Shown here in pieces: positions 30,935-44,894 of a DNA stretch of 64,000 nucleotides. The stretch comes from Paenibacillus sp. FSL H8-0079. GTDB lineage: Bacteria; Bacillota; Bacilli; Paenibacillales; Paenibacillaceae. A program made the translations under genes and the position numbers. Numbering within the stretch: the stretch's first letter is position 1; every line of letters starts with the position of its first letter. The stretch spans positions 3,472,001 through 3,536,000 of the forward strand of contig NZ_CP150300.1 in NCBI RefSeq assembly GCF_037991315.1, given 5' to 3'. The notes beneath the pieces are model-generated. The model saw only the letters and a list, made by a program, of their open reading frames with translations. It had not been told where the DNA came from and did not search any database.

Positions 30935-34251
<3,317 letters not shown>

Positions 34252-34281
34252 TGAATGAATTAACGAAATGATCATGTGGTT

Positions 34282-34326
34282 ACGACCGTTCTCTGGAATA
34301 CTTCCGGAAAACGGTCGTTTGTTTTG
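34282..34326. terminator. Terminator after the glucoside operon
   Basis: ACGACCGTT pairs with AACGGTCGT, followed by TTGTTTTG; it also faces the convergent TetR gene. Confidence 0.75.
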
Positions 34327-34336
34327 TTTAGATTCA

Positions 34337-34900
34337 CTATTGCATAAATGAATGTTCAACCGAACGACTTACTTTTTCAATAAATCGAGCTATTTCTCGC
34401 GGCGTTTCCTTCATTCCATGTTTAATCCAATTTTTGATGACTGCTGCACTGCCGCTTGAAATGAATGAATAGTATGATTCAAGCGTATTCACATCCATGT
34501 GAGGCATTTGTTCCCTCCATACTTCAATACTTCGATCATGCAAAATATAGATCACCCGTTCCAAATAATCTCCATTCCCATGATCAGAGAACAGGATGGT
34601 ACACAGGTCACTGTTATCTGCGATATGTTCGCAGATTTCAACGAATGAACTTTTAACATGTACATCATCCAGTATAGAACGTTCTATAAGCTCCTTAATA
34701 ACCGCAAAAAATGATTCTTCAATGCTTGAAAGCAAATGAACTGGAGAATGATAGTGCATATAGAACGTATTACGATTAAGATTCGCTTGTCTGCATAAGT
34801 CAGTCACGGTAATTTTGTTAATTGGACGCTCTTTCATAAGTGCTAACAGACTTTCTCTTAATACCATTTTGCTATATTGAATTCTGCGGTCTTCTTGCAT
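34337..34900 (-). CDS. TetR-family regulator
   Basis: 187 residues. N-terminal helix-turn-helix (INKITVTDLCRQANLNRNTFYMHYHSPVHLL) and a C-terminal domain of the DhaS/TetR_C_8 type (residues 75-187, YYSFISSGSAAVIKNWIKHGMKETPREIA). It is divergent from an esterase gene; GTTCGWTAAC-type repeats in the gap are probable operators, and the repressor probably controls both genes. Confidence 0.9.
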   Translation of the reverse strand: MQEDRRIQYSKMVLRESLLALMKERPINKITVTDLCRQANLNRNTFYMHYHSPVHLLSSIEESFFAVIKELIERSILDDVHVKSSFVEICEHIADNSDLCTILFSDHGNGDYLERVIYILHDRSIEVWREQMPHMDVNTLESYYSFISSGSAAVIKNWIKHGMKETPREIARFIEKVSRSVEHSFMQ

Positions 34901-34964
34901 TCCCCTTAATTACCCTCCTAATGATGCAAAATCATCGAGCTAACAGACATAATCCGTTGTTTCG

Positions 34965-35026
34965 TTCGTTAACTATCATTTGTTATCGAACTGCCTGTTG
35001 TTTATCGAACAGCGTGTACATATACT
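34965..35026 (+). promoter_or_regulatory. Operator repeats and esterase promoter
   Basis: GTTCGTTAAC (34965-34974) and GTTATCGAAC (34982-34991) form an inverted repeat (9 of 10), and a third TTTATCGAAC starts at 35001. A promoter TTGTTT (34998) - 17 bases - TATACT (35021-35026) overlaps the third copy, so a bound repressor would block it. Confidence 0.65.
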
Positions 35027-35068
35027 ATAACCAGAGTAACAGATTATTACCTTTTGGAGGAACAATTA

Positions 35069-36052
35069 ATGAAAGTAACCTATGCAATGATAGATAAAGA
35101 ATTACGTCTGAAAGGTAGGATTTTGAACATCTTAATGAGTTCCTCAAGTGAAGACCGATTTCTAAAAGATATGCTCAAAAGAAAAAAACAAATTGAAAAA
35201 CGAAAAGGGAAGCATCTGGAAGGGATGCACTGTCGGGAAGAATGGATTGAACGTAAAGACGGATCTAAACAGCGTATGCTTATCTATAGACCTCATCATG
35301 TCCAAGAAAACCTTCCGGGTATTCTTTGGTTACATGGAGGAGGCTACGCACAGGGAATACCAGAACTGTTCGAAAACATGTACCAAAAGTTAATGGACAC
35401 AAGTAATTGTGTTATTATCGCGCCGGATTATCGTTTATCTATTGAAGCACCGTATCCAGCAGCGTTAGAGGATAGCTATGACGCTCTTCTATGGATGAAG
35501 CAGCATGCCAAGGAGCTGGGAATTCGGAGTAATCAACTTATGGTAGGTGGGGAAAGTGCAGGAGGAGGGTTAACCGCAGCTCTTACTCTCTATGCGAGAG
35601 ATCAGGGGGAAGTGAATATCGCATTTCAAATGCCGCTGTACCCCATGATCGATGACAGAATGATCACTGAATCAGCCCAAGATAATAATGCCCCCATATG
35701 GAACTCTGACATGAATGAATGGGCTTGGAAGCTTTACCTCGGAGAGAATTACGGAAAAGAGGTATCTCCTTATGCGTCAGCTGCAAGAGCTACCGATTAT
35801 AGTAACCTTCCACCCACAGTGACTTTCGTCGGTGATGTGGAACCCTTCCGGGATGAAACGATCGAATACGTTAAGCAATTAAAAGAAGCCGGCATTCCCG
35901 TTGAATTCACGCTATATAAAGGCTGTTACCATGGATTTGATATCATTAATCCCAAAGCCAAGGTAAGCCAGGAAGCCACTTTATTCTTAATGAAATCTTA
36001 CAAGTATGCAGTAGAGCATTATTTTACCGAGCAACATGCCACACTTGAATAG
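35069..36052 (+). CDS. HSL-family esterase (alpha/beta hydrolase)
   Basis: 327 residues from the ATG at 35069, with GGAGGAA upstream; an in-frame TTG at 35054 is the ribosome site region itself. Oxyanion HGGG at 89-92, nucleophile GESAGG with S163, acid Asp in FVGDVEPFRDE and His in CYHGFD show the hormone-sensitive lipase family, which hydrolyses short-chain esters. Cytoplasmic; no signal. Divergent from a TetR gene that probably represses it. Confidence 0.9.
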   Translation: MKVTYAMIDKELRLKGRILNILMSSSSEDRFLKDMLKRKKQIEKRKGKHLEGMHCREEWIERKDGSKQRMLIYRPHHVQENLPGILWLHGGGYAQGIPELFENMYQKLMDTSNCVIIAPDYRLSIEAPYPAALEDSYDALLWMKQHAKELGIRSNQLMVGGESAGGGLTAALTLYARDQGEVNIAFQMPLYPMIDDRMITESAQDNNAPIWNSDMNEWAWKLYLGENYGKEVSPYASAARATDYSNLPPTVTFVGDVEPFRDETIEYVKQLKEAGIPVEFTLYKGCYHGFDIINPKAKVSQEATLFLMKSYKYAVEHYFTEQHATLE

Positions 36053-36080
36053 AGGGATGTATGTATGGAATGGAAACAAA

Positions 36081-36118
36081 CCAAAAGAGCAATCTCCAAT
36101 GAGGTTGCTCTTTTGGTC
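36081..36118. terminator. Bidirectional terminator
   Basis: CCAAAAGAGCAA (36081-36092) pairs with TTGCTCTTTTGG (36105-36116) between the convergent esterase and SufR-like genes. Confidence 0.88.
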
Positions 36119-36776
36119 ATGGTTTATTTTGCGTAACGATGTATACGCAGTTTCTTCCTCCGGCTAAAATGTATTCTCCTCGTTCAATACGAACATTATC
36201 GCCTAAAACCGTTTTGAATAAATGTAATTCATTCTTGCATAACCCGGTACATACCACGGCCGCTTCACAGATGGGGCAATGCTTCTCAATGAGTAGGAGA
36301 CTGCCATCATCCTGCTCCTTAACCTCGGCCATATAACCCTCATTGGTGCGAATCTCGGCCAATTTCTCCAATTTCTCTCGAACATCCGATGCATCGCCAA
36401 GATGCTGAAGATATTGTTCTTGCATATTTTTATTTCGCACATCCAGCAGCTTGTCCAGCCCTTCATGACCAAAAGCTTCTTTCATCGAATTGATGAGGCT
36501 GACGGATAAATCCGAATATCCACTTGGGAAAAAACGATTAGCCGCGGGAGTTAATATCCATAGCTTGGTGGGGCGACCCATGGGACGGGCCTCTTCCACA
36601 GTGGTAACCAATCCTTCTTCTTTTAGCGCATTCAGATGTTGCCGAATAGCCATTCCAGATAACGAAAACTGAGTGGAGAGTGCCATAACATCCATTCCCC
36701 CGCGCTCTTTTAACAGATTAATAATTGCTCTCCGGGTACTGGTCGAGGCATCCTTTTTGGTTTGATTTCCGCTCAT
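36117..36776 (-). CDS. SufR-like Fe-S-sensing transcriptional regulator
   Basis: 219 residues. N-terminal winged helix (about 14-75, GGMDVMALSTQFSLSGMAIRQHLNALKEEGLV, then RPMGRPTKLWILT), a helical middle and a C-terminal Cys cluster: C167, C170, C176, C180 and C210 in HCPICEAAVVCTGLC and GGRNCVY. The spacings C167-C180 and C180-C210 resemble those of the 4Fe-4S ligands of SufR (mycobacterial C179, C192, C220). It is divergent from an operon with two Fe-S carrier-like proteins, and twin AACA-N4-TGTT elements lie between. I infer that it senses Fe-S or redox state; that it represses this operon is likely but unproven. Confidence 0.82.
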   Translation of the reverse strand: MSGNQTKKDASTSTRRAIINLLKERGGMDVMALSTQFSLSGMAIRQHLNALKEEGLVTTVEEARPMGRPTKLWILTPAANRFFPSGYSDLSVSLINSMKEAFGHEGLDKLLDVRNKNMQEQYLQHLGDASDVREKLEKLAEIRTNEGYMAEVKEQDDGSLLLIEKHCPICEAAVVCTGLCKNELHLFKTVLGDNVRIERGEYILAGGRNCVYIVTQNKP

Positions 36777-36825
36777 CGTGCACCTCCTTGTGAAGCAACT
36801 GAATCTACATGACTAACTACATTTT

Positions 36826-36890
36826 AAACAAAAATGTTGACAAAGTCAAAGTCGAACTGTAGCTTAGACATTATAAACAAAAATGTTTAC
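36826..36890. promoter_or_regulatory. Twin operator repeats before the MFS/Fe-S operon
   Basis: AAACAAAAATGTTGAC (36826-36841) and AAACAAAAATGTTTAC (36875-36890) differ at one base, each with an AACA-N4-TGTT dyad, 49 bases apart. The first overlaps a -35-like TTGACA (36837-36842). They are probably operators for the SufR-like protein. Confidence 0.65.
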
Positions 36891-36942
36891 TAAGTATCCG
36901 GATACGATGTATACATACCAATTTTCTTGGAGGTCACATGTC

Positions 36943-38301
36943 ATGTCGTCTAATCATCAAAGTATTTTCAGCCCGCGTTATTTTGCATTATCCATAGGAA
37001 TCATTTTGTCAGTGATGGCCGTTGGATTCGAAGGTCTATCTGTCACCACCATTGCTCCTTCGATTGCTGGAGACTTGAACGGCCTTAGCCTGTTCGGGTG
37101 GATATTCAGTACGTATCTGCTTGCGCAGATTATCGGGACGCTGGTCGTCGGTCGAATCATTGATAAAAGAGGACCTGCAGCACCGTTCACTTTTGCACTT
37201 CTGTTGTTTATCGTAGGGCTGATCGCTGCCGCAACCGCAGGCGATATGTATACCATGATAGGATCACGGGCCCTTCAGGGTTTGGGTGCCGGAGCTATGA
37301 TGACTTGTGTATATACGGCTATATCCTTAAGTTACCCAGATGAGTTACGTGCCAAAATACTTGGAGCATTTGGTACTGCCTATGTTCTTCCGTCCATGCT
37401 TGGTCCATATGTAGCCGGTCTTATCGCAGATCAGTGGTCCTGGCGCTTTGTTTTCTGGGGGATCTTACCCGTGCTGGTGGTTTCAGCATTGCTTAGTTTA
37501 CCTGCCTTTAGGAAATTGAAAGTGCAGAAGACGGGAGTGGATACCGGATCTTCATCCACTTGGATGGCGCTACTCTTAACGTTAGGTACAGGGATTTTCC
37601 TGGTTGGTTTAAGTATGCTTCCGAACATTATGGGATTTGTTTTAGTCGCGATTGGCCTAGTATTGATGTTATTTCCGCTCCGTAAATTGCTACCGAAGGG
37701 AACACTTACGTTGCGAAGAGGTATGCCAGCAATTCTGGCAACACGTGGGTTGTTCTTCGCTGCCTATACCAGCACACAGAATTTCCTGGTATTGGCTCTA
37801 ATCGACGTGAAAGGAATTACACCTTCACAGGCCGGATTAATTGTCGCGAGTGCTGCATTAAGTTGGTGTATCATTGCGTATCTACAAGGACGGTGGGATG
37901 CGGCAGATCAGGGCCGTGGACGTCATATGAGAATCATTCTGGGGGTATTGCTGCTTGCGATAGGGATTGCTATCGTATTTTGGGTACCTGTTGTGACCGT
38001 TACCATCGCAGTTCTTGGTCAGATCATTGCTGGAGTTGGTATTGGATTGGCGCATCCGATTAGCGGTGTTGTCGCATTTTCCCAAACGGGGGAGGAAGGC
38101 GTAGGCCAGACCTCGGCCAATCTGCAATTTGCAGATTCGTTTACACCTGGGGTAGTGATCGGTATTGGTGGTTCCATCCTTGTCGTGTGTCAGGCTGGCG
38201 GTATGTCACTTCAATCCGGCTTAATTGTAGCCATGGGGTTCCATCTCTTGTTGATCGTCATGAGTATCATTGCCAGCACTCGGATCTCACCACGCAGATG
38301 A
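36943..38301 (+). CDS. MFS exporter, first of a paralogous pair
   Basis: 452 residues from the ATG at 36943 with TTGGAGGT upstream; the frame is open to 36883 but without a ribosome site. About 14 membrane helices of the DHA2-like drug exporters; motif A appears as GRIIDKRGP and motif C region as LPSMLGPYVAGLIAD. Paralogous to the exporter at 39401-40882 (shared EGL-TTIA, GWIFS, IGTLV, IDKRG, ADQ/DARDQG, SANLQF-DSF). First gene of the operon opposite the SufR-like gene. Substrate unknown. Confidence 0.9.
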   Translation: MSSNHQSIFSPRYFALSIGIILSVMAVGFEGLSVTTIAPSIAGDLNGLSLFGWIFSTYLLAQIIGTLVVGRIIDKRGPAAPFTFALLLFIVGLIAAATAGDMYTMIGSRALQGLGAGAMMTCVYTAISLSYPDELRAKILGAFGTAYVLPSMLGPYVAGLIADQWSWRFVFWGILPVLVVSALLSLPAFRKLKVQKTGVDTGSSSTWMALLLTLGTGIFLVGLSMLPNIMGFVLVAIGLVLMLFPLRKLLPKGTLTLRRGMPAILATRGLFFAAYTSTQNFLVLALIDVKGITPSQAGLIVASAALSWCIIAYLQGRWDAADQGRGRHMRIILGVLLLAIGIAIVFWVPVVTVTIAVLGQIIAGVGIGLAHPISGVVAFSQTGEEGVGQTSANLQFADSFTPGVVIGIGGSILVVCQAGGMSLQSGLIVAMGFHLLLIVMSIIASTRISPRR

Positions 38302-38313
38302 ATATGAAAGTGG

Positions 38314-38661
38314 GTGTACAGACCATTGCTCACTGAAGATCCGGATAAACTATTTACAGCTTATCGCATCATCGGAACTAAATGGACGATCCATATTTTA
38401 TGTGCTCTGTCTCAAGGCCCGAAGAGATTCGGTGAAATATTCGATAACATTCCTTCCATTTCCGAAATGATCCTCTCCAGACGTTTAAAGGGTCTTCAAC
38501 ATGATCATTTGGTCAAAAGAACAATACGGACACGCCCTACACAAATTATTTATGAACTTACGCCAAAAGGAGCTGCTCTTGCAGCATTCATACCCTGTCT
38601 AATGGACTGGGATACCAAATTTCAAAATGATACCACCGGGAGGAATAAAAATGATCATTGA
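38314..38661 (+). CDS. HxlR-family regulator inside the operon
   Basis: 115 residues with a GTG start 12 bases after the MFS stop. Winged helix: YRIIGTKWTIHILCALSQGPKRFGEIFDNIPSISEMILSRRLKGLQ. It lacks the N-terminal Cys of redox-sensing HxlR proteins; a Cys in HILCALS is in the first helices. The start is uncertain because the ribosome site is poor; a TTG near 38326 is an alternative. It overlaps the next gene by 11 bases. Role probably in autoregulation of this operon. Confidence 0.8.
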   Translation: MYRPLLTEDPDKLFTAYRIIGTKWTIHILCALSQGPKRFGEIFDNIPSISEMILSRRLKGLQHDHLVKRTIRTRPTQIIYELTPKGAALAAFIPCLMDWDTKFQNDTTGRNKNDH

Positions 38662-39010
38662 GGTCAGTGATACAGCATCGGACAAAATCGTTGAGATCTT
38701 ATCAAGTGCGGATATCCAAAATGCCTTTCTTAGAGTAGGCGTTGATGAAGGGGGATGCAGTGGTTTATCTTATACCCTTATCGTGGATGAACAGCAGGCA
38801 GAAGAAGACACTGTGTTAAATAAAAAGCAATTTAAGATATTGGTTCACGCAAACAGTATTCCATATATTGATGGTCTTGAGATTGATTATGAAGAGAGCG
38901 GAATGTTAGGCGGATTCACCATGAATAATCCAAATGCCAAAGTTTCGTGTGGATGCGGGGCTAGTTTCAGAATGGCCAATTATCGTGGCGAAGTGAAAAA
39001 ATGCGATTAA
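38651..39010 (+). CDS. A-type Fe-S cluster carrier (IscA/HesB family)
   Basis: 119 residues from the ATG at 38651 (GGGAGG upstream). The three cluster-binding Cys of the A-type carrier fold are present: C36 in GGCSGLSY and C100, C102 in SCGCG; C118 lies at the end. Such proteins hold and deliver Fe-S clusters to target enzymes. It is not with suf genes but inside an exporter operon controlled by a SufR-like protein, which is unusual. Length and motifs fit ErpA/SufA. Confidence 0.92.
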   Translation: MIIEVSDTASDKIVEILSSADIQNAFLRVGVDEGGCSGLSYTLIVDEQQAEEDTVLNKKQFKILVHANSIPYIDGLEIDYEESGMLGGFTMNNPNAKVSCGCGASFRMANYRGEVKKCD

Positions 39011-39033
39011 ACTGAAGGAAGGAGTGCAGGGCA

Positions 39034-39321
39034 ATGATTTCATTTGTAGTATCTGATCAAGCGATCGATTCATTTAAGAATGAATGGGATTTGGAAGAGG
39101 GCCAATATGTAAGGATTTATGCAAAATATGTCGGAGGAGGCTCTGATGCTTTTACAATTGGCATAAATGCGAGTGCTACACCGGTCGATCCCGCATTAGT
39201 TCAATCCATTGGAGGATTTCAATTCTTTGTTAAAAAAACAGATGCATGGATACTGGAGGATGAACTTCTCCAAATTGACTGTAATGAACATGGCATATTT
39301 TCAAGCAAAATCTCCTATTGA
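39034..39321 (+). CDS. HesB/YneR-like protein
   Basis: 95 residues. The pattern (ISFVVSDQAIDSFKNEWDLEEGQYVRIYAKYVGGGSDAFTIGI, then FFVKKTDAWILED) matches the YneR/HesB-like branch of the Fe-S biosynthesis fold, which lacks the three ligand cysteines; only one Cys is present near the end. Function unknown in this family. 23 bases after the A-type carrier gene; GGAAGGAG precedes the ATG. Tandem HesB-fold genes here suggest a joint job. Confidence 0.8.
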   Translation: MISFVVSDQAIDSFKNEWDLEEGQYVRIYAKYVGGGSDAFTIGINASATPVDPALVQSIGGFQFFVKKTDAWILEDELLQIDCNEHGIFSSKISY

Positions 39322-39400
39322 ACATGTGAATCATTTTCTAGAGCACGATTCCACTTTTTAAACATTCAACTTTACAAAGTAGAGAGCTTAATGTATATTC

Positions 39401-40882
39401 ATGGAGTTAAAAGGTTTAATTTACCATAATAACCATCAAATTACGGAGGTGTGGGAGACAAACAATAATCAAATTGGGATTTTTGATGCTCAATACAGGG
39501 CAACTACAATTGGTATTATGCTGGTTCTGGCAACCGTAGCTTTCGAAGGACTGGCTATCACAACGATTGCCGCGAAAATGGCACAAAGTTTAGAGGGTAT
39601 TCATTTATACGGTTGGATCTTCAGCGCATTTTTGTTATCTCAGCTTATTGGAACCTTGGTTATGGGTCAGCAGATTGACAAGCGCGGCGTTTTTACATCC
39701 ATGCTGATATCTTTTAGTGTTTTTGTATTAGGAACTGTGGTCTCCGCTATTTCTTTCGATATGCACATGCTTATTGCGGGAAGAGCCCTTCAAGGTTTTG
39801 GAGCGGGGGCCCTGATCACATGCGTTTATACCTGTGTGACATTACATTATCCAGATACACTTCGTACTCAAATCCTGGCCGCATTCTCCCTGGCATTTGT
39901 CCTGCCTACCTTAATCGGACCTTATGCAGCAGGCCTTATAGCTTCCTACATCTCGTGGCGATATGTTTTCTGGATCGTTTTACCCTTGATTGGAATAGCG
40001 TTGAGTCTCACATTCCGTTCTTTCCGTAATTTGCAGCTTCAGCAAGATCTGTCAGGTCCGCCACGAGCAACCGACTCAAAGATTATGTATGCGATTCTGC
40101 TTGCCGTTGGAACTGGACTGTTACTCACAGGACTTGGTATGATAACCGATTGGAAAGGTATAGTACTCACTTTGGCTGGATTAGTCATCATGATCACACC
40201 AATGCGTAAATTGCTGCCTGTGGGCACTTTTTCGGTAAAAAAAGGATTGCCTGCTACTCTGGTTTCGAGAGGCCTATATGTTGCTTGTTATTTTACAACG
40301 GAGAGTTTTGTGATCTTGGCGCTAACCGAAGTGAAGGGGTTATCAGCTGACCTTGCTGGCCTCATTGTAGCAGCAGGTTCTCTGAGCTGGTCCGCCGCAG
40401 CGTGGTTGCAAGCCAAGCTTGATGCACGAGATCAAGGTCATGCCCGAAAGGGCAGGGTCATAACGGGCATTGGGATTATGATCGTTGGAACTGTACTTGT
40501 GATCCTGGCTCTTATTTTGACGGACGGCGGGATTATACTCATCCTTCTCTCACAAATGATTACAGGGTTTGGTGTTGGATTGGCCAACCCTACAACGGCA
40601 GCCATTGCTTTACAACATGCCTTGCCCAGGAAAGAGGGAGAAATGTCCGCGAATCTACAATTTGTGGATTCCTTCTATATGGGAGTAAGCATTGGCGTTG
40701 GTGGCGCTCTGATTGCCTTGTCCGAAACGTTACAGTGGGGCATATCGACAGGTGTCTTGATCGTGTTAACACTGCAATTACTATGGGTCTTGTTAAGTTT
40801 CTTAGCATCACTACGAATTACCCAACTCGTTCATCAAGAACATCATCCAATCAGCCAAGTGAAGGATAACATCTCCATGTAA
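39401..40882 (+). CDS. MFS exporter, second of a paralogous pair
   Basis: 493 residues, 14-helix-type MFS with an N-terminal extension of about 30 residues. The ATG at 39401 has no good ribosome site nearby; GGAGGTG lies inside the frame at about 39445 without a usable ATG after it, so the start is uncertain. Similar along its length to the exporter at 36943 (EGLAITTIA, GWIFSAFLL, LIGTLVMGQQIDKRG, PTLIGPYAAGLIASY). Fifth gene of the operon, 79 bases after the HesB-like gene. Confidence 0.88.
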   Translation: MELKGLIYHNNHQITEVWETNNNQIGIFDAQYRATTIGIMLVLATVAFEGLAITTIAAKMAQSLEGIHLYGWIFSAFLLSQLIGTLVMGQQIDKRGVFTSMLISFSVFVLGTVVSAISFDMHMLIAGRALQGFGAGALITCVYTCVTLHYPDTLRTQILAAFSLAFVLPTLIGPYAAGLIASYISWRYVFWIVLPLIGIALSLTFRSFRNLQLQQDLSGPPRATDSKIMYAILLAVGTGLLLTGLGMITDWKGIVLTLAGLVIMITPMRKLLPVGTFSVKKGLPATLVSRGLYVACYFTTESFVILALTEVKGLSADLAGLIVAAGSLSWSAAAWLQAKLDARDQGHARKGRVITGIGIMIVGTVLVILALILTDGGIILILLSQMITGFGVGLANPTTAAIALQHALPRKEGEMSANLQFVDSFYMGVSIGVGGALIALSETLQWGISTGVLIVLTLQLLWVLLSFLASLRITQLVHQEHHPISQVKDNISM

Positions 40883-40952
40883 CGGATGACGACCGCGTCG
40901 TTAAATACATCATGAAGAACGGGGGGACTAATTGCATTGGGAGGTGGATAAG

Positions 40953-42173
40953 ATGGCACGTGTATTAGTAGTCATTACTCCGGCTGAAGGACATGTGAAT
41001 CCATCGTTAGGATTAGTTACTCAATTGATAGACAATGGTGAGGAAGTCATCTATGTGTGCACGGAGGAGTACCGTTCCCGAATTGAACAAACCGGTGCCC
41101 AGATACTTACCTATCCGTTTCCACAAGATGCCTTCTCTCATGATCCGGTGTTGAAACCCCAGGAGTATAAGCATTCTTATCAGTTCACCTATATGATGGT
41201 AAGTATTATCCGGAGGATCATCCCCAATGTGCTGCAGGTGGTAGAGGATCAAAAGTTCGATTATATGATCTTTGATTCCCTGATGGGATGGGGAGGGACT
41301 ATTCTTGCAGAAAAACTGGGAATTCCTGCGGTGTGCTCGATTGCGTCCTTTGCTTTTGTGGAGCCTCTGGGATCTAACTCAGGTCTGAATGAGACGGAGA
41401 CAAAGGAGCTTTATGAGGCTACGATGAAGATAACAATGGAGTTAGCCGAAGAGTTTCAAGTGAGTATTCCAGCCATGGAAGAGATTCCGGCCCATGCAGG
41501 TCAGTTAAAGCTCGTGTACACCAGCCGTTATTTTCAGCCACAGGCAGACAAGCTGGATGATCGTTTTATTTTCACGGGTCCTTCGATCATAACACGTCAA
41601 GATGCTCCTGCCTTCTCGTTCGAGCTGCTTCGTGAACAGTACCCACAAACCGTGTACATTGCGATGGGTACGATCTTAAATAAAAACTTGGATTTCTATC
41701 AGCTTTGCTTTGAAGCATTAGGAGATCTACCCGTTAATGTTGTTTTATCTTCGGGAAAATACACGGACATGGAGCCGCTGGCGGAACAAATTCCTCCTAA
41801 CTTTATCGTCAAGCCATACATTGCCCAGTTGGACATGCTGCAGCATACCGATGTTTTTATTACACATGCTGGAATGAACAGCACGAGTGAGGCTTTATAT
41901 TACAACGTTCCGATGGTAATGATTCCATTAACATCGGATCAGCCTCTTGTCGCCAATCGGGTACAGGAGTTGGGCGCAGGGATTACTTTAAATAAACATA
42001 ACCTCAGTGAAACTCATTTGAGGGAGGCACTAATAGAAGTACTACACAATTCGCAATATAAACGGCAGGCTTACCTCATCGGTGAATCTTTACGCCAGGC
42101 AGGCGGTTACAAGCGAGCTGCCGAAATGATTATGAATCGTATGGGTTCAGGAGTAGAACTTTATGAATTTTGA
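40953..42173 (+). CDS. Macrolide-type glycosyltransferase (UGT/MGT, GT1)
   Basis: 406 residues from the ATG at 40953 (GGAGGT upstream). GT-B fold: acceptor domain start RVLVVITPAEGHVNPSLGL with the catalytic-base His in EGHVNP, donor domain motif THAGMNSTSEALYYNVPMVMIPLTSDQPLVANRV (about 300-335) which binds the UDP-sugar. Close to Bacillus YjiC/YojK and OleD-like enzymes that glucosylate macrolides, flavonoids and other aglycones, often to detoxify them. Last gene of the exporter/Fe-S operon. Confidence 0.93.
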   Translation: MARVLVVITPAEGHVNPSLGLVTQLIDNGEEVIYVCTEEYRSRIEQTGAQILTYPFPQDAFSHDPVLKPQEYKHSYQFTYMMVSIIRRIIPNVLQVVEDQKFDYMIFDSLMGWGGTILAEKLGIPAVCSIASFAFVEPLGSNSGLNETETKELYEATMKITMELAEEFQVSIPAMEEIPAHAGQLKLVYTSRYFQPQADKLDDRFIFTGPSIITRQDAPAFSFELLREQYPQTVYIAMGTILNKNLDFYQLCFEALGDLPVNVVLSSGKYTDMEPLAEQIPPNFIVKPYIAQLDMLQHTDVFITHAGMNSTSEALYYNVPMVMIPLTSDQPLVANRVQELGAGITLNKHNLSETHLREALIEVLHNSQYKRQAYLIGESLRQAGGYKRAAEMIMNRMGSGVELYEF

Positions 42174-42200
42174 TATAGCAGCCAGCTTCATTTAGGCATT

Positions 42201-42241
42201 GAAAATAGACGATCCTGTTAATCCAGGGTCGTCTATTTTTT
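42201..42241 (+). terminator. Terminator closing the MFS/Fe-S/GT operon
   Basis: AAATAGACGATCC pairs with GGGTCGTCTATTT, followed by T residues. It is the first strong terminator after 36943. Confidence 0.88.
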
Positions 42242-42318
42242 AACGTTGATTAATCTTCTGTGAACTTTCAACCAAGTTATACGAAATATATGATGTCTGT
42301 GATCCATGATCAGTGAGT

Positions 42319-43500
42319 CTAGTTTGTCACCTCTGACTTTTTAATTGGTAGTAAACGATTTGTTGCGAATACGACCATTACAACCAGAAGAGCTGTTATC
42401 CCGATTAAAAGTTGGATATTGCCTAAAGGATACAAAAAACTTCCAATTAGTGGAGCAGTAGCCATACCAAGATAACGAACAAAGTTATAGACACCCATTG
42501 CCGTAGCACGCTCTTCAACAAACTCTGAGGACAAGAGGGTTGGCATCACTGGTGTTGCAAGTCCCATCACGAATCCAGTAAGCATCAGAGAGAGAAGCAA
42601 TCCAATTAGAGAGTAATCTGCAGCAAAAATAAAAATCACAAGACTCAAAATGGTCATTATACCGGCCCAGAAGAGTGTTCGTACTGAGCCTATACGGGTT
42701 TGTAAACTTCCACTCATTTTACTTCCAACAAGATTGAATATCATGAGGGCGAGGGAGAAAAATCCAATGCTTGCAGCGCCTAAAGCATACTTCGTTTGTA
42801 ATATTGTAGGTAGAAATACAATGAATGTGTAAAAGACATCATACATGATGAAACCGCTCAAAAGAACTACAACGCCGGTTTTGTTCCCCAGAATTTTCCC
42901 AAATGCTTTTAAACCTAGTCTTGTTCCCGCTGGTTTTATGTTGACTGGTTTTGTCTCAGGTAACATAAATATGGCTGCTATCAGGATGAGAAGAGCACTG
43001 ACTGCTGCAAAACCAAACGTACCCGTGTAACCGAATTGACTACCGATAATACCACCGATGAGCGGACCAATAGCTGGTGAAATTCCAAGAATCATCTGAT
43101 ATGTAGCCATACTTTCGGCACGCTCTTTACCCTCAAAAACATCTCCGATCATTGTAGCAGCTACTAATGGAACAGATGATGCGCCTATTCCTTGAATGAC
43201 TCGAAAAATGAGTAACATTTCTATTGAACCTGAAAACATGCATCCTATAGTAGCAATTACATAAATAATTATACCCGGGACTAGGATTTTCTTACGTCCA
43301 TTACGATCAACAATGGGGCCAAGTATGATCTGCATGGTTGCCATGGCCACAGTGAATAAAGTAACCGTTAGATTAACTAAATGTAATGACGTATTTAGAT
43401 CTTGTTGCAGATCAGGTAGCAAAGGAATATACAGGCTTTGAGCAAGAGATACAATAGCGGCAGAAATCCCCAAGATAAAGAGCAATCGTCGTTTGTTCAT
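42319..43500 (-). CDS. MFS exporter (DHA1, drug/H+ antiporter)
   Basis: 393 residues, 12 helices. Motif A GPIVDRNGRKKIL and motif C GISPAIGPLIGG place it in the drug:H+ antiporter-1 branch, close to Bcr-like exporters. Divergent from a TetR gene with two palindromic operators between, so it is likely induced by its own substrate. Ribosome site GGAGGTG before the ATG. Confidence 0.92.
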   Translation of the reverse strand: MNKRRLLFILGISAAIVSLAQSLYIPLLPDLQQDLNTSLHLVNLTVTLFTVAMATMQIILGPIVDRNGRKKILVPGIIIYVIATIGCMFSGSIEMLLIFRVIQGIGASSVPLVAATMIGDVFEGKERAESMATYQMILGISPAIGPLIGGIIGSQFGYTGTFGFAAVSALLILIAAIFMLPETKPVNIKPAGTRLGLKAFGKILGNKTGVVVLLSGFIMYDVFYTFIVFLPTILQTKYALGAASIGFFSLALMIFNLVGSKMSGSLQTRIGSVRTLFWAGIMTILSLVIFIFAADYSLIGLLLSLMLTGFVMGLATPVMPTLLSSEFVEERATAMGVYNFVRYLGMATAPLIGSFLYPLGNIQLLIGITALLVVMVVFATNRLLPIKKSEVTN

Positions 43501-43520
43501 AAAACACCTCCAAATTATAT

Positions 43521-43578
43521 TGACTGACTGTCAGTCATATTGTATATTGAGCTTATAACATTGACTGACAGTTAGTCA
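43521..43578. promoter_or_regulatory. Two TetR operators
   Basis: TGACTGAC-T-GTCAGTCA (43521-43537) is a perfect 8-1-8 palindrome; TGACTGAC-A-GTTAGTCA (43562-43578) has one mismatch. They are 41 bases apart between the MFS and TetR genes. Confidence 0.88.
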
Positions 43579-43626
43579 AGTTGTACATTTAAACTAATAT
43601 AAAGGAGTGACAAAGGAGATCTGACA

Positions 43627-44220
43627 ATGACACGAGTAAGCAAGAATCCCCAGGAACGAAAAAATGAAATACTGACTGTGGCTATGGAATTATTCAACTC
43701 GAAGGGCTACGAAAATACATCTGTCAGTGAAATCGTAAGAAAAGTTGGTGTTTCACAAGGAACTTTCTACAATTATTTTCAATCTAAAGAAGATGTACTT
43801 CATGCTGCTTGTGAACGAACATTATCATCTCGTTTGGAAGCCATACATCATTTAGTTGAAAATCGTGATCTCAAAGCGAGAGAAAAACTTATTCGTATTT
43901 TTATGGATGCAACCCCTAACGAACAGGATGAAGATGTATTTGAATATCTTCATAAGGAAAGTAACAGTACCTTGCATCAAAAATGGATTGTGATCGAAAT
44001 TAATGCATTGATTCCTTACATCAAAAAAATCGTTCAGCAGGGGGCAGAAGAGGGAGAATTTCTTGCTCAACAACCCGAGCTTAAAGCGGAGTTTCTTTTG
44101 GTAGGTGCTGCATTTTGGCTTGATCGTGGTGTGTTTACCTGGAATGAACAAGATTATCTGGAGAGAAAAAATGCTTTGAACGGGATCATTGATCAGCTAC
44201 TTGCTGTTAATAAGCAATGA
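43627..44220 (+). CDS. TetR-family repressor
   Basis: 197 residues. Helix-turn-helix at 10-57 (NEILTVAMELFNSKGYENTSVSEIVRKVGVSQGTFYNYFQSKED); C-terminal ligand domain. The paired TGACTGAC palindromes (a common TetR/AcrR operator type) upstream suggest it represses itself, the nitroreductase behind it, and the divergent MFS exporter. Confidence 0.92.
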   Translation: MTRVSKNPQERKNEILTVAMELFNSKGYENTSVSEIVRKVGVSQGTFYNYFQSKEDVLHAACERTLSSRLEAIHHLVENRDLKAREKLIRIFMDATPNEQDEDVFEYLHKESNSTLHQKWIVIEINALIPYIKKIVQQGAEEGEFLAQQPELKAEFLLVGAAFWLDRGVFTWNEQDYLERKNALNGIIDQLLAVNKQ

Positions 44221-44261
44221 ATTGCATCGTTCAACAGACTATAGGAAGAAGGAAGACGAGA

Positions 44262-44894
44262 ATGAATTCAATAACAAAAGATTTTAGTGAGGTTTTGCAT
44301 GGCCGTCGTACGATAAAGAAATACGATCCGAATTATAAAATTAGTCGGGAAGAAATCACTGAAATGCTCGAAGATGCTGCTTTGGCTCCATCAGCATTCA
44401 ATTTACAGCCTTGGCGATTTGTCGTTATTGACAGTGACAAAGGTAAGGAAGACCTGCTCGAAATTGCGCCTTTTAACTTTTCACAAATTAATACTTCGTC
44501 AGCAGTTATCGCCGTCTTTGGTGACCTGAATTTTGTCGACAGTGCAGAAGACATTTACAAGGAAACCGCTGATCTTGGCTATATAACGCAGGAAATTAAA
44601 GATAAGATGCTTGCTATGGTTGTACCCATGTATAATCAATTTTCGATGGATAAGAAAAGAGAGTCTGTGTTGCTGGATGGCGGACTTGTCTCTATGCAGT
44701 TTATGCTTACGGCACATGCTCATGGTTATGCGACAAATCCAATGTCAGGCTTTAACAAAGAGAAGATTGCAGCAGTATTGGGATTAGATCCAGAGCGATA
44801 TGTTCCAATACTGCTCATTTCAATCGGCAAGGCAGCTTCAGATGCGCGCCCGCCTGTTCGTCTTCCGATCAGCCAAATTACAGAGTGGAAATAA
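44262..44894 (+). CDS. Nitroreductase family protein
   Basis: 210 residues from the ATG at 44262, after GAAGGAAG; an ATG at 44217 overlapping the TetR stop is a weaker alternative. FMN-dependent fold: RRTIKKYDPNYKISREEI, LAPSAFNLQPWRFVVID, and GGLVSMQFMLTAHAHGYATNPMSGF. Co-transcribed with TetR, so reduction of a nitro or quinone compound and export of it may be linked through the divergent MFS. Ends at the dispersed hairpin copy 3. Confidence 0.9.
   Translation: MNSITKDFSEVLHGRRTIKKYDPNYKISREEITEMLEDAALAPSAFNLQPWRFVVIDSDKGKEDLLEIAPFNFSQINTSSAVIAVFGDLNFVDSAEDIYKETADLGYITQEIKDKMLAMVVPMYNQFSMDKKRESVLLDGGLVSMQFMLTAHAHGYATNPMSGFNKEKIAAVLGLDPERYVPILLISIGKAASDARPPVRLPISQITEWK

Follow-up and report, generated by a model that had tools for sequence, protein, structure and literature searches.

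According to a review (PMC8593673), iron-sulfur (Fe-S) sensors of the SufR type are limited to Cyanobacteria plus some Actinobacteria and control suf only, and a 2009 paper reports that no sufR turned up in genomes of Firmicutes (PMC2644719). The cyanobacterial ligand motif is C-x12-C-x13-C-x14-C (PMC8593673), Rv1460, the SufR of M. tuberculosis, requires C203, C216 and C244 (PMC6034842), and two sites lie in the divergent promoter region of Synechocystis SufR (PMC6034842, PMC8593673). In E. coli, SufA is needed for SoxR maturation under prolonged phenazine methosulfate stress and SoxR raises AcrAB efflux (PMC7671543), and in B. subtilis the HxlR relatives YodB, CatR and HypR sense hypochlorous acid (HOCl), quinones and diamide (PMC6943732); these statements, like those below, follow excerpts of the cited papers. 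Here we analyze a 64,000-nucleotide stretch of Paenibacillus sp. FSL H8-0079 (the window; contig NZ_CP150300.1, positions 3,472,001 to 3,536,000), in which a SufR-type regulator faces six genes that encode two major facilitator superfamily (MFS) exporters, an HxlR regulator, an A-type Fe-S carrier, a 95-amino-acid (95-aa) protein and a glycosyltransferase. Our computation established the linkage of these genes, a conserved triad of cysteine ligands in the regulator, three copies of a dyad and the confinement of that dyad to the locus. We propose with moderate confidence that the regulator is a SufR-family Fe-S repressor that, on damage to its cluster by redox-active aromatics, opens a SoxR-like expel-and-repair module.

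The regulator and its cysteines

The regulator aligned with the SufR profile TIGR02702 over the full length of that profile (positions 1-208 of 208) and scored 114.6 bits against a curated cut-off of 178.8. Of 299 genomes sampled from its class, 111 have SufR-type proteins (E 1e-15 or less), all below the TIGR02702 cut-off, which none of the 299 genomes reached; three control genomes match the profile (Synechococcus, Deinobacterium and C. glutamicum), and one of them lies above the cut-off. The five cysteines with SufR-like spacing that an earlier note on this DNA had pointed out (C167, C170, C176, C180 and C210) are present, and the ligand triad C167-x12-C180-x29-C210 is intact in all 92 aligned rows. 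A tree of these rows (88 different) divides them into the regulator's own clade (57 rows) and a sister clade (35 rows) with a split support of 100/100, the triad being complete in both. C170 is found in 56 and C176 in 57 of the 57 own-clade rows, and both are absent from the sister clade (0/35). Not included in the tree were the truncated copies of L066 and L098, from which some cysteines are missing as read, and also five of 30 class loci (L164, L173, L177, L184 and L186) together with L110 and L111, in which an overlapping frame had been picked.

The regulator has the C-x12-C pair and third C-terminal cysteine of SufR ligands, and its first ligand gap is the same as that between C203 and C216 of Rv1460; for the fourth cysteine of the cyanobacterial motif, we found no cysteine between C180 and C210. 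The kept triad and the full-length profile alignment support its assignment, at the level of sequence, as a SufR-type sensor, and we infer that it binds a cluster.

In an AlphaFold model (predicted local distance difference score, pLDDT, 80.1; predicted template modeling score, pTM, 0.61), the protein has an N-terminal winged helix, a long helix and an alpha/beta C-terminal part that bears the cysteines. Foldseek searches with this model returned 1590 matches, of which three had E values no higher than 0.001: a pair of winged-helix proteins and, at rank 3, a TRAPP subunit (6aq3, E 9.9e-4). The phenol-sensor domain of MopR (5kbe) followed at rank 30 (E 6.1e-3, template modeling score 0.42), and weak matches to PF14196 and MetOD1 occurred in 12 and 7 of 30 members. 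We take the TRAPP- and MopR-type folds to be V4R-related, which raises the possibility that the C-terminal domain is a V4R-like pocket sensing an aromatic directly, as MopR senses phenol, with zinc-binding or structural cysteines and the Fe-S genes as passengers. The glycosyltransferase and the aromatic-type reductase partners described below would suit phenolic ligands. We nevertheless regard this explanation as unlikely: the fold matches are weak, two of the three best being winged-helix proteins, a cluster is favored by the SufR ligand triad and by linkage to the carrier in 28 of 37 loci, and a cluster and a pocket can coexist.

Predicted operators and transcription units

The locus, which lies within a single 6.7-Mb contig, has the following features (MGT, the macrolide-family glycosyltransferase):

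36080..36117, no strand assigned: stem-loop past the regulator gene, likely terminator (consensus scan; -26.1 kcal/mol, z -7.95)
36117..36776, minus: predicted SufR-type repressor, winged helix-turn-helix and C-terminal cysteine domain (TIGR02702, cysteine triad, AlphaFold model)
36819..36846, no strand assigned: predicted operator 1, ACATTTTAAA-N8-TTGACAAAGT, between regulator and MFS1 (alignment and pattern scans)
36821..36849, minus: regulator promoter-like site TTGACT-17-TAAAAT, overlapping operator 1 (consensus match only; such matches are not above shuffles)
36837..36842, plus: possible MFS1 -35 box TTGACA inside operator 1 (read from the sequence; conserved in the intergenic alignment)
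36868..36895, no strand assigned: predicted operator 2, ACATTATAAA-N8-TTTACTAAGT (alignment and pattern scans)
36894..36905, no strand assigned: palindrome GTATCCGGATAC beside operator 2 (a single match in the window and none in 100 shuffles; conserved in relatives)
36943..38301, plus: MFS1, drug-exporter-like; open reading frame (ORF) opens at 36883 (PF07690)
38314..38661, plus: HxlR/DUF24 regulator, GTG start (PF01638)
38651..39010, plus: A-type Fe-S carrier; ORF opens at 38627 (TIGR00049)
39034..39321, plus: 95-aa protein, distant A-type carrier relative lacking the ligand cysteines (hhalign; PF01521 below cut-off)
39353..39380, no strand assigned: predicted operator 3, ACTTTTTAAA-N8-TTTACAAAGT, overlapping the MFS2 promoter -35 box (Markov-sample scan, conservation)
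39371..39399, plus: internal promoter-like site TTTACA-17-TATATT for MFS2-MGT (consensus scan; boxes conserved)
39401..40882, plus: MFS2, exporter similar to MFS1, start uncertain (PF07690)
40953..42173, plus: macrolide-family UDP-glycosyltransferase (MGT), YjiC type (TIGR01426)
42203..42240, plus: intrinsic terminator (-21.3 kcal/mol, z -7.95)

Alignment of 38 divergent intergenic regions (the window and 37 loci of regulator relatives) gave long conserved blocks, and these were then compared with the region upstream of MFS2. The predicted operator is a 28-bp dyad, ACTTTGTAAA-N8-TTTACAAAGT, present in three copies in the window (36819, 36868 and 39353). The twin AACA-N4-TGTT repeats of the earlier note are real and were half recognized, being the core of this longer, three-copy element. 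As an operator in its own right AACA-N4-TGTT was discarded in favor of the dyad: with NAC added, it had 20 genome-wide matches versus 27 for a backward control. The degenerate (IUPAC) dyad fits without mismatch at three places in the genome, all in the locus, and no further place matches with one or two mismatches; at three mismatches the count is not above background (11+10 matches versus 20+16 for the backward control). When operator 1 was scanned across the 64 kb, operator 3 was its third-best place, equaled in 0 of 20000 Markov samples.

Conservation of the dyad follows the clade. Among 54 distinct own-clade upstream regions, 41 score 20 of 20 arm positions, nine score 19, two score 18 and two score 17; the 1080 Markov samples include one that reaches 18 and four that reach 17 or more, and the corresponding counts among 34 sister-clade upstreams are two and five. 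The L105 site falls outside the 200-base upstream cut used for scoring, the start of the gene having been called too far upstream, and was seen when the distant members L096-L109 were read. The dyad is retained where the first divergent gene differs, and it is also present in L174, from another family, as ACTTTATAAA-N8-TTTATAAAGT (19/20).

The suf genes lie apart from this predicted regulon, as the earlier note had said of the carriers: SufB/SufD are encoded at about 2.094-2.098 Mb, roughly 1.4 Mb from the window (3.472-3.536 Mb), and a 10-kb stretch that we read there shows no good dyad ahead of them. Suf was rejected as a regulon member, since it has no good upstream site and the match at 2098342 (3 mismatches) lies past sufB, at background level; at the level of this sequence check, the regulator does not share SufR's control of a suf operon.

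Operator 3 overlaps the -35 box of an internal MFS2 promoter-like site whose boxes (39371-39399) are present in 8 of 8 aligned sequences (window plus seven). The scanner found six promoter-like sites versus a shuffle mean of 15.9, so the evidence for this promoter is its conservation and not its consensus match. Because operator 3 lies on a conserved internal promoter-like site, we read the run as two units under one predicted repressor, with MFS2-MGT, as judged from sequence, the second transcription unit. A single uninterrupted operon as the sole reading is rejected, and the earlier view of the six genes as one set, split by no promoter, gives way to two units under three predicted operators. 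Among MFS2-bearing relatives, operator 3 scores 19-20 of 20 in 8 of 10 and is not found in L061 and L068; in L068, MFS2 is the first gene past operators 1 and 2. The internal promoter, the occurrence of MFS2 and MGT in just 10 of 37 loci each, and L061 would also fit two unrelated adjacent operons, one for exporter, HxlR and carrier and the other, MFS2-glycosyltransferase, for macrolide-like antibiotics. We consider such an arrangement very improbable given that operator 3 sits on the MFS2 promoter in the window and eight relatives, and that the L068 regulator faces MFS2-MGT directly.

Through the promoter-like site overlapping operator 1, the regulator may regulate its own gene. For the possible MFS1 -35 box (36837..36842) we found no good -10 box. 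The ATG at 36943, with GGAGG, is the likelier MFS1 start because 36883 falls inside operator 2. The MFS2 start region (39401-39520) has a conserved GGAGG and no clear start codon: in L035, L038, L039 and L040 a GTG after the GGAGG is followed by TAG, and in the window the ATG at 39401 is one base away from the -10 box. The true MFS2 start may be unusual. The palindrome beside operator 2 was considered as an HxlR site, which is not supported, as loci in which we found no HxlR retain it too; nor is it strictly tied to MFS1, the next genes being HxlR and carrier in L114 and an MFS2-like gene in L026. It is possibly a second operator or a leader element.

Gene linkage across relatives

The 37 loci come from one scan of GTDB contigs and are separate, not phylogenetically independent; 36 of the named relatives are labeled Paenibacillus and one Bacillus. 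Counted on the divergent side versus the other side of the regulator, MFS1 occurs in 29 and 0 loci, the carrier in 28 and 0, HxlR in 19 and 1, the 95-aa protein in 12 and 0, MFS2 and MGT in 10 and 0 each, and MurB in 7 and 0. The co-conservation that the earlier note proposed to look for was borne out for the regulator with an exporter (31 of 37 loci have MFS1 or MFS2) and with the carrier, and not for the whole set, with all six genes together in just 7 of 37. The complete set is a lineage-specific feature, and the recurrent pairings are those of the regulator with an exporter and of the regulator with an A-type carrier.

Across 295 genomes of the family, the regulator (E 1e-40 or less) is found in 56 and carrier relatives with at least 73% identity in 30, all of them among the 56 (hypergeometric 6.5e-26, phylogeny ignored). 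Judged by coordinates, each of the 31 places of these carrier relatives has a regulator gene no more than about 3 kb away. The pairing is not exclusive: of 14 chosen stretches with carriers at 50-68% identity, ten have a sister-clade regulator, in some cases several kb distant, two an own-clade regulator and two (L146 and L153) no SufR-type gene. Degraded loci also occur, with MFS1 in pieces in L034 and a truncated regulator with MFS1 remnants in L066.

The A-type carrier belongs to its family by score (TIGR00049, 116.1 bits versus a cut-off of 58.8) and by its three ligand cysteines; Cys 44, 108, 110 and 126 (127-aa numbering) are present in 27, 28, 28 and 28 of 28 rows. The 95-aa protein aligned with the carrier profile (hhalign probability 86%, E 4.9e-6, 18% identity), reached 13.3 bits on PF01521 versus a cut-off of 26.3, with no family above cut-off, and gave no match to solved structures. 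Its single cysteine, C83, is found in 11 of 12 rows, not invariant in alignment A2, and is not a carrier ligand. With a sub-cut-off score and no ligand cysteines, we therefore do not call it a carrier, and HesB/YneR-like, as it had been labeled, was an overstatement. A copy of this gene with an internal stop lies about 1 Mb from the regulator in G292.

MFS1 scored 134.2 bits on PF07690, its best further profiles, DHA2/EmrB and SdrM, being below cut-off (TIGR00711, 85 bits versus 230.2); MFS2 resembles MFS1 (PF07690, 111.7 bits). The HxlR protein (PF01638, 82.8 bits versus 20.8) and the glycosyltransferase (TIGR01426, 345.1 bits versus 260) are members of their families, the latter matching a solved YjiC chain at E 4.9e-57. 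These assignments suggest efflux, and in the window's lineage glycosylation.

Partner genes were read in hand-picked stretches, not a random sample. In the own clade, L107 encodes an FMN-dependent azoreductase, an MFS protein and an ene-reductase by profiles, an order that L098 repeats as judged from sequences; L067 has an MFS protein, a flavodoxin-fold azoreductase-like protein and a glyoxalase match just below cut-off; and L096 and L101 have other MFS-like proteins, assigned without a profile run. L044-L050 include MurB in seven loci, flavin mononucleotide (FMN) reductase in six and Rrf2 in three. Sister-clade regulators lie near SodA (L147 and L150 by Pfam; L166, L171 and L179 by BLAST), AhpC/AhpF, flavokinase, a pyridine-nucleotide reductase and DUF1450 (L152), and rhodanese (L151 and the own genome by Pfam; L155 and L157 by sequence), and several lie near A-type carriers and MurB-like genes. 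The sister-clade partners and the azoreductases and ene-reductases point to redox and electrophile stress.

Co-occurring A-type carriers, Rrf2 and MurB in some loci, and the report that SufR answers iron starvation in cyanobacteria (PMC8593673) are in keeping with a general Fe-S or iron-starvation regulator, whose MFS proteins would export a siderophore, citrate or a metabolite piling up when Fe-S enzymes fail. Azoreductase and ene-reductase partners suit xenobiotics better, and MFS1 and MFS2 are drug-exporter-like by profile, if below cut-off, which leaves this explanation quite improbable in our view.

In both clades, SufR-type regulators and A-type carriers repeatedly have MurB, a cell-wall reductase, or a flavoprotein resembling it in their vicinity (L044-L050, L148, L149 and L151). 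Among L160-L189, from other families of the class, the sister-clade genes of L166, L171 and L179 are those adjoining SodA, and those of L172 and L187 adjoin similar proteins of about 145 aa. Such genes may bear on Gram-positive Fe-S stress control.

Reading of the ORFs reproduced the order, strands and spacings reported earlier for a minus-strand regulator facing six tightly packed genes: MFS1 ends at 38301, 12 bases before the HxlR GTG at 38314; HxlR (end 38661) overlaps the carrier ATG (38651) by 11; the 95-aa gene starts 23 bases past the carrier end at 39010, the MFS2 ORF 79 bases past that gene, and the glycosyltransferase ATG (40953) 70 bases past MFS2. The run closes at a strong terminator, placed near 42201 by the earlier note, which folds well and is not among the consensus-scanner matches. 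Beyond it, 42319-44220 holds a converging Bcr/CflA-like MFS gene and a divergent TetR regulator, apparently a second, separate efflux pair. No Rfam families were found over 34000-44500 and no tRNA genes in the window.

Proposed mechanism and known systems

In the mechanism that we favor, the SufR-family Fe-S repressor, bound to the three 28-bp dyads, would shut both the MFS1-HxlR-carrier-95-aa unit and the MFS2-glycosyltransferase unit. Repression by the cluster-bearing form and release on damage are suggested by analogy with SufR biology. An aromatic compound that is redox-active or electrophilic, such as a quinone or phenazine, would oxidize or strip the cluster at C167, C180 and C210, and the repressor would let go of the DNA. 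MFS1 and MFS2 would then export the compound, which the window's lineage would additionally glycosylate, and the dedicated A-type carrier would be produced and repair damaged clusters. We further propose that the carrier may reload the repressor, closing the loop and ending the response, and the HxlR protein is probably a thiol-based second input. DNA binding, repression, the class of inducer and carrier feedback are thus parts of a model that we infer. Of the earlier sense, glycosylate, expel and repair reading, the SufR-type sensor, the exporter-carrier linkage and the position away from suf persist; glycosylation, with MGT in 10 of 37 loci, is not core.

Several observations weigh against this model. 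The regulator does not reach TIGR02702 membership by score, its second-to-third ligand gap is 29, where Rv1460 and the own-genome paralogue have 27, and its cysteines are also compatible with Fe-S-free roles (zinc, direct ligand). The dyad pattern was derived from the own clade and the distant L096-L109 had been seen beforehand, so that L174 is the sole clean independent case, and L061 carries MFS2 without operator 3. Repair is not obligatory, since 9 of 37 loci lack the carrier: seven of these hold MFS1 alone of the module genes (including L053, with just 2.2 kb on the divergent side), L067 holds another MFS and L068 MFS2-MGT. Any substrate of MFS1 and MFS2 is putative, and the support is computational throughout.

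A bolder version, which we hold tentatively and lean against, is that the five-cysteine SufR-derived clade is a SoxR-like sensor of redox-active chemicals with a private carrier that re-inserts its cluster; losing the cluster would open the exporters and reloading would close them again, a self-resetting Fe-S switch in Bacilli. The favored model suggests that bacteria have put a SufR-type sensor to a second use, in detecting redox-damaging chemicals and expelling them. Were it true, efflux in Gram-positive bacteria would be under the direct control of Fe-S status, and sensor reloading could be tested directly through the paired carrier.

Among the matches listed in the open-access literature (titles and abstract openings; subscription literature mostly lay outside the search), no SufR-type regulator of exporters is described, and matches pairing SufR with Paenibacillus were unrelated titles only. 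The window regulator resembles SufR of Synechocystis, M. tuberculosis (Rv1460) and S. avermitilis in its winged helix-turn-helix and C-terminal ligand cysteines with C-x12-C, and, in the excerpts cited above, Synechocystis SufR shares the divergent promoter region with two sites, here predicted. Unlike SufR, it is tied to exporters and a carrier and not to the suf operon, has two extra cysteines, belongs to a Bacilli host and has the predicted dyad as its operator, not CAAC-N6-GTTG. Sister-clade regulators, including the own-genome paralogue (G000:C1:6305892), share the ligand triad and, in several loci, the A-type carrier linkage, but differ in their SodA, AhpCF, rhodanese and MurB-like partners, in lacking C170 and C176 and in rarely having the dyad upstream. 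E. coli SoxR is of a different protein family from SufR; its carrier lies within suf and control runs via SoxS. The SoxR-SoxS/AcrAB/SUF system and, as proposed, the window both have an Fe-S sensor that couples efflux during redox-cycler stress with an A-type carrier that matures the sensor (PMC7671543). As in the YodB, CatR and HypR (HxlR/DUF24) regulons, an HxlR-type regulator lies in the operon and relatives have azoreductase partners (PMC6943732), whereas in the window the divergent regulator is SufR-type and the operon has no azoreductase. The locus joins a sensor of known family to targets and an operator that are new, and in the proposed scheme this sensor works like SoxR from outside the SoxR family.

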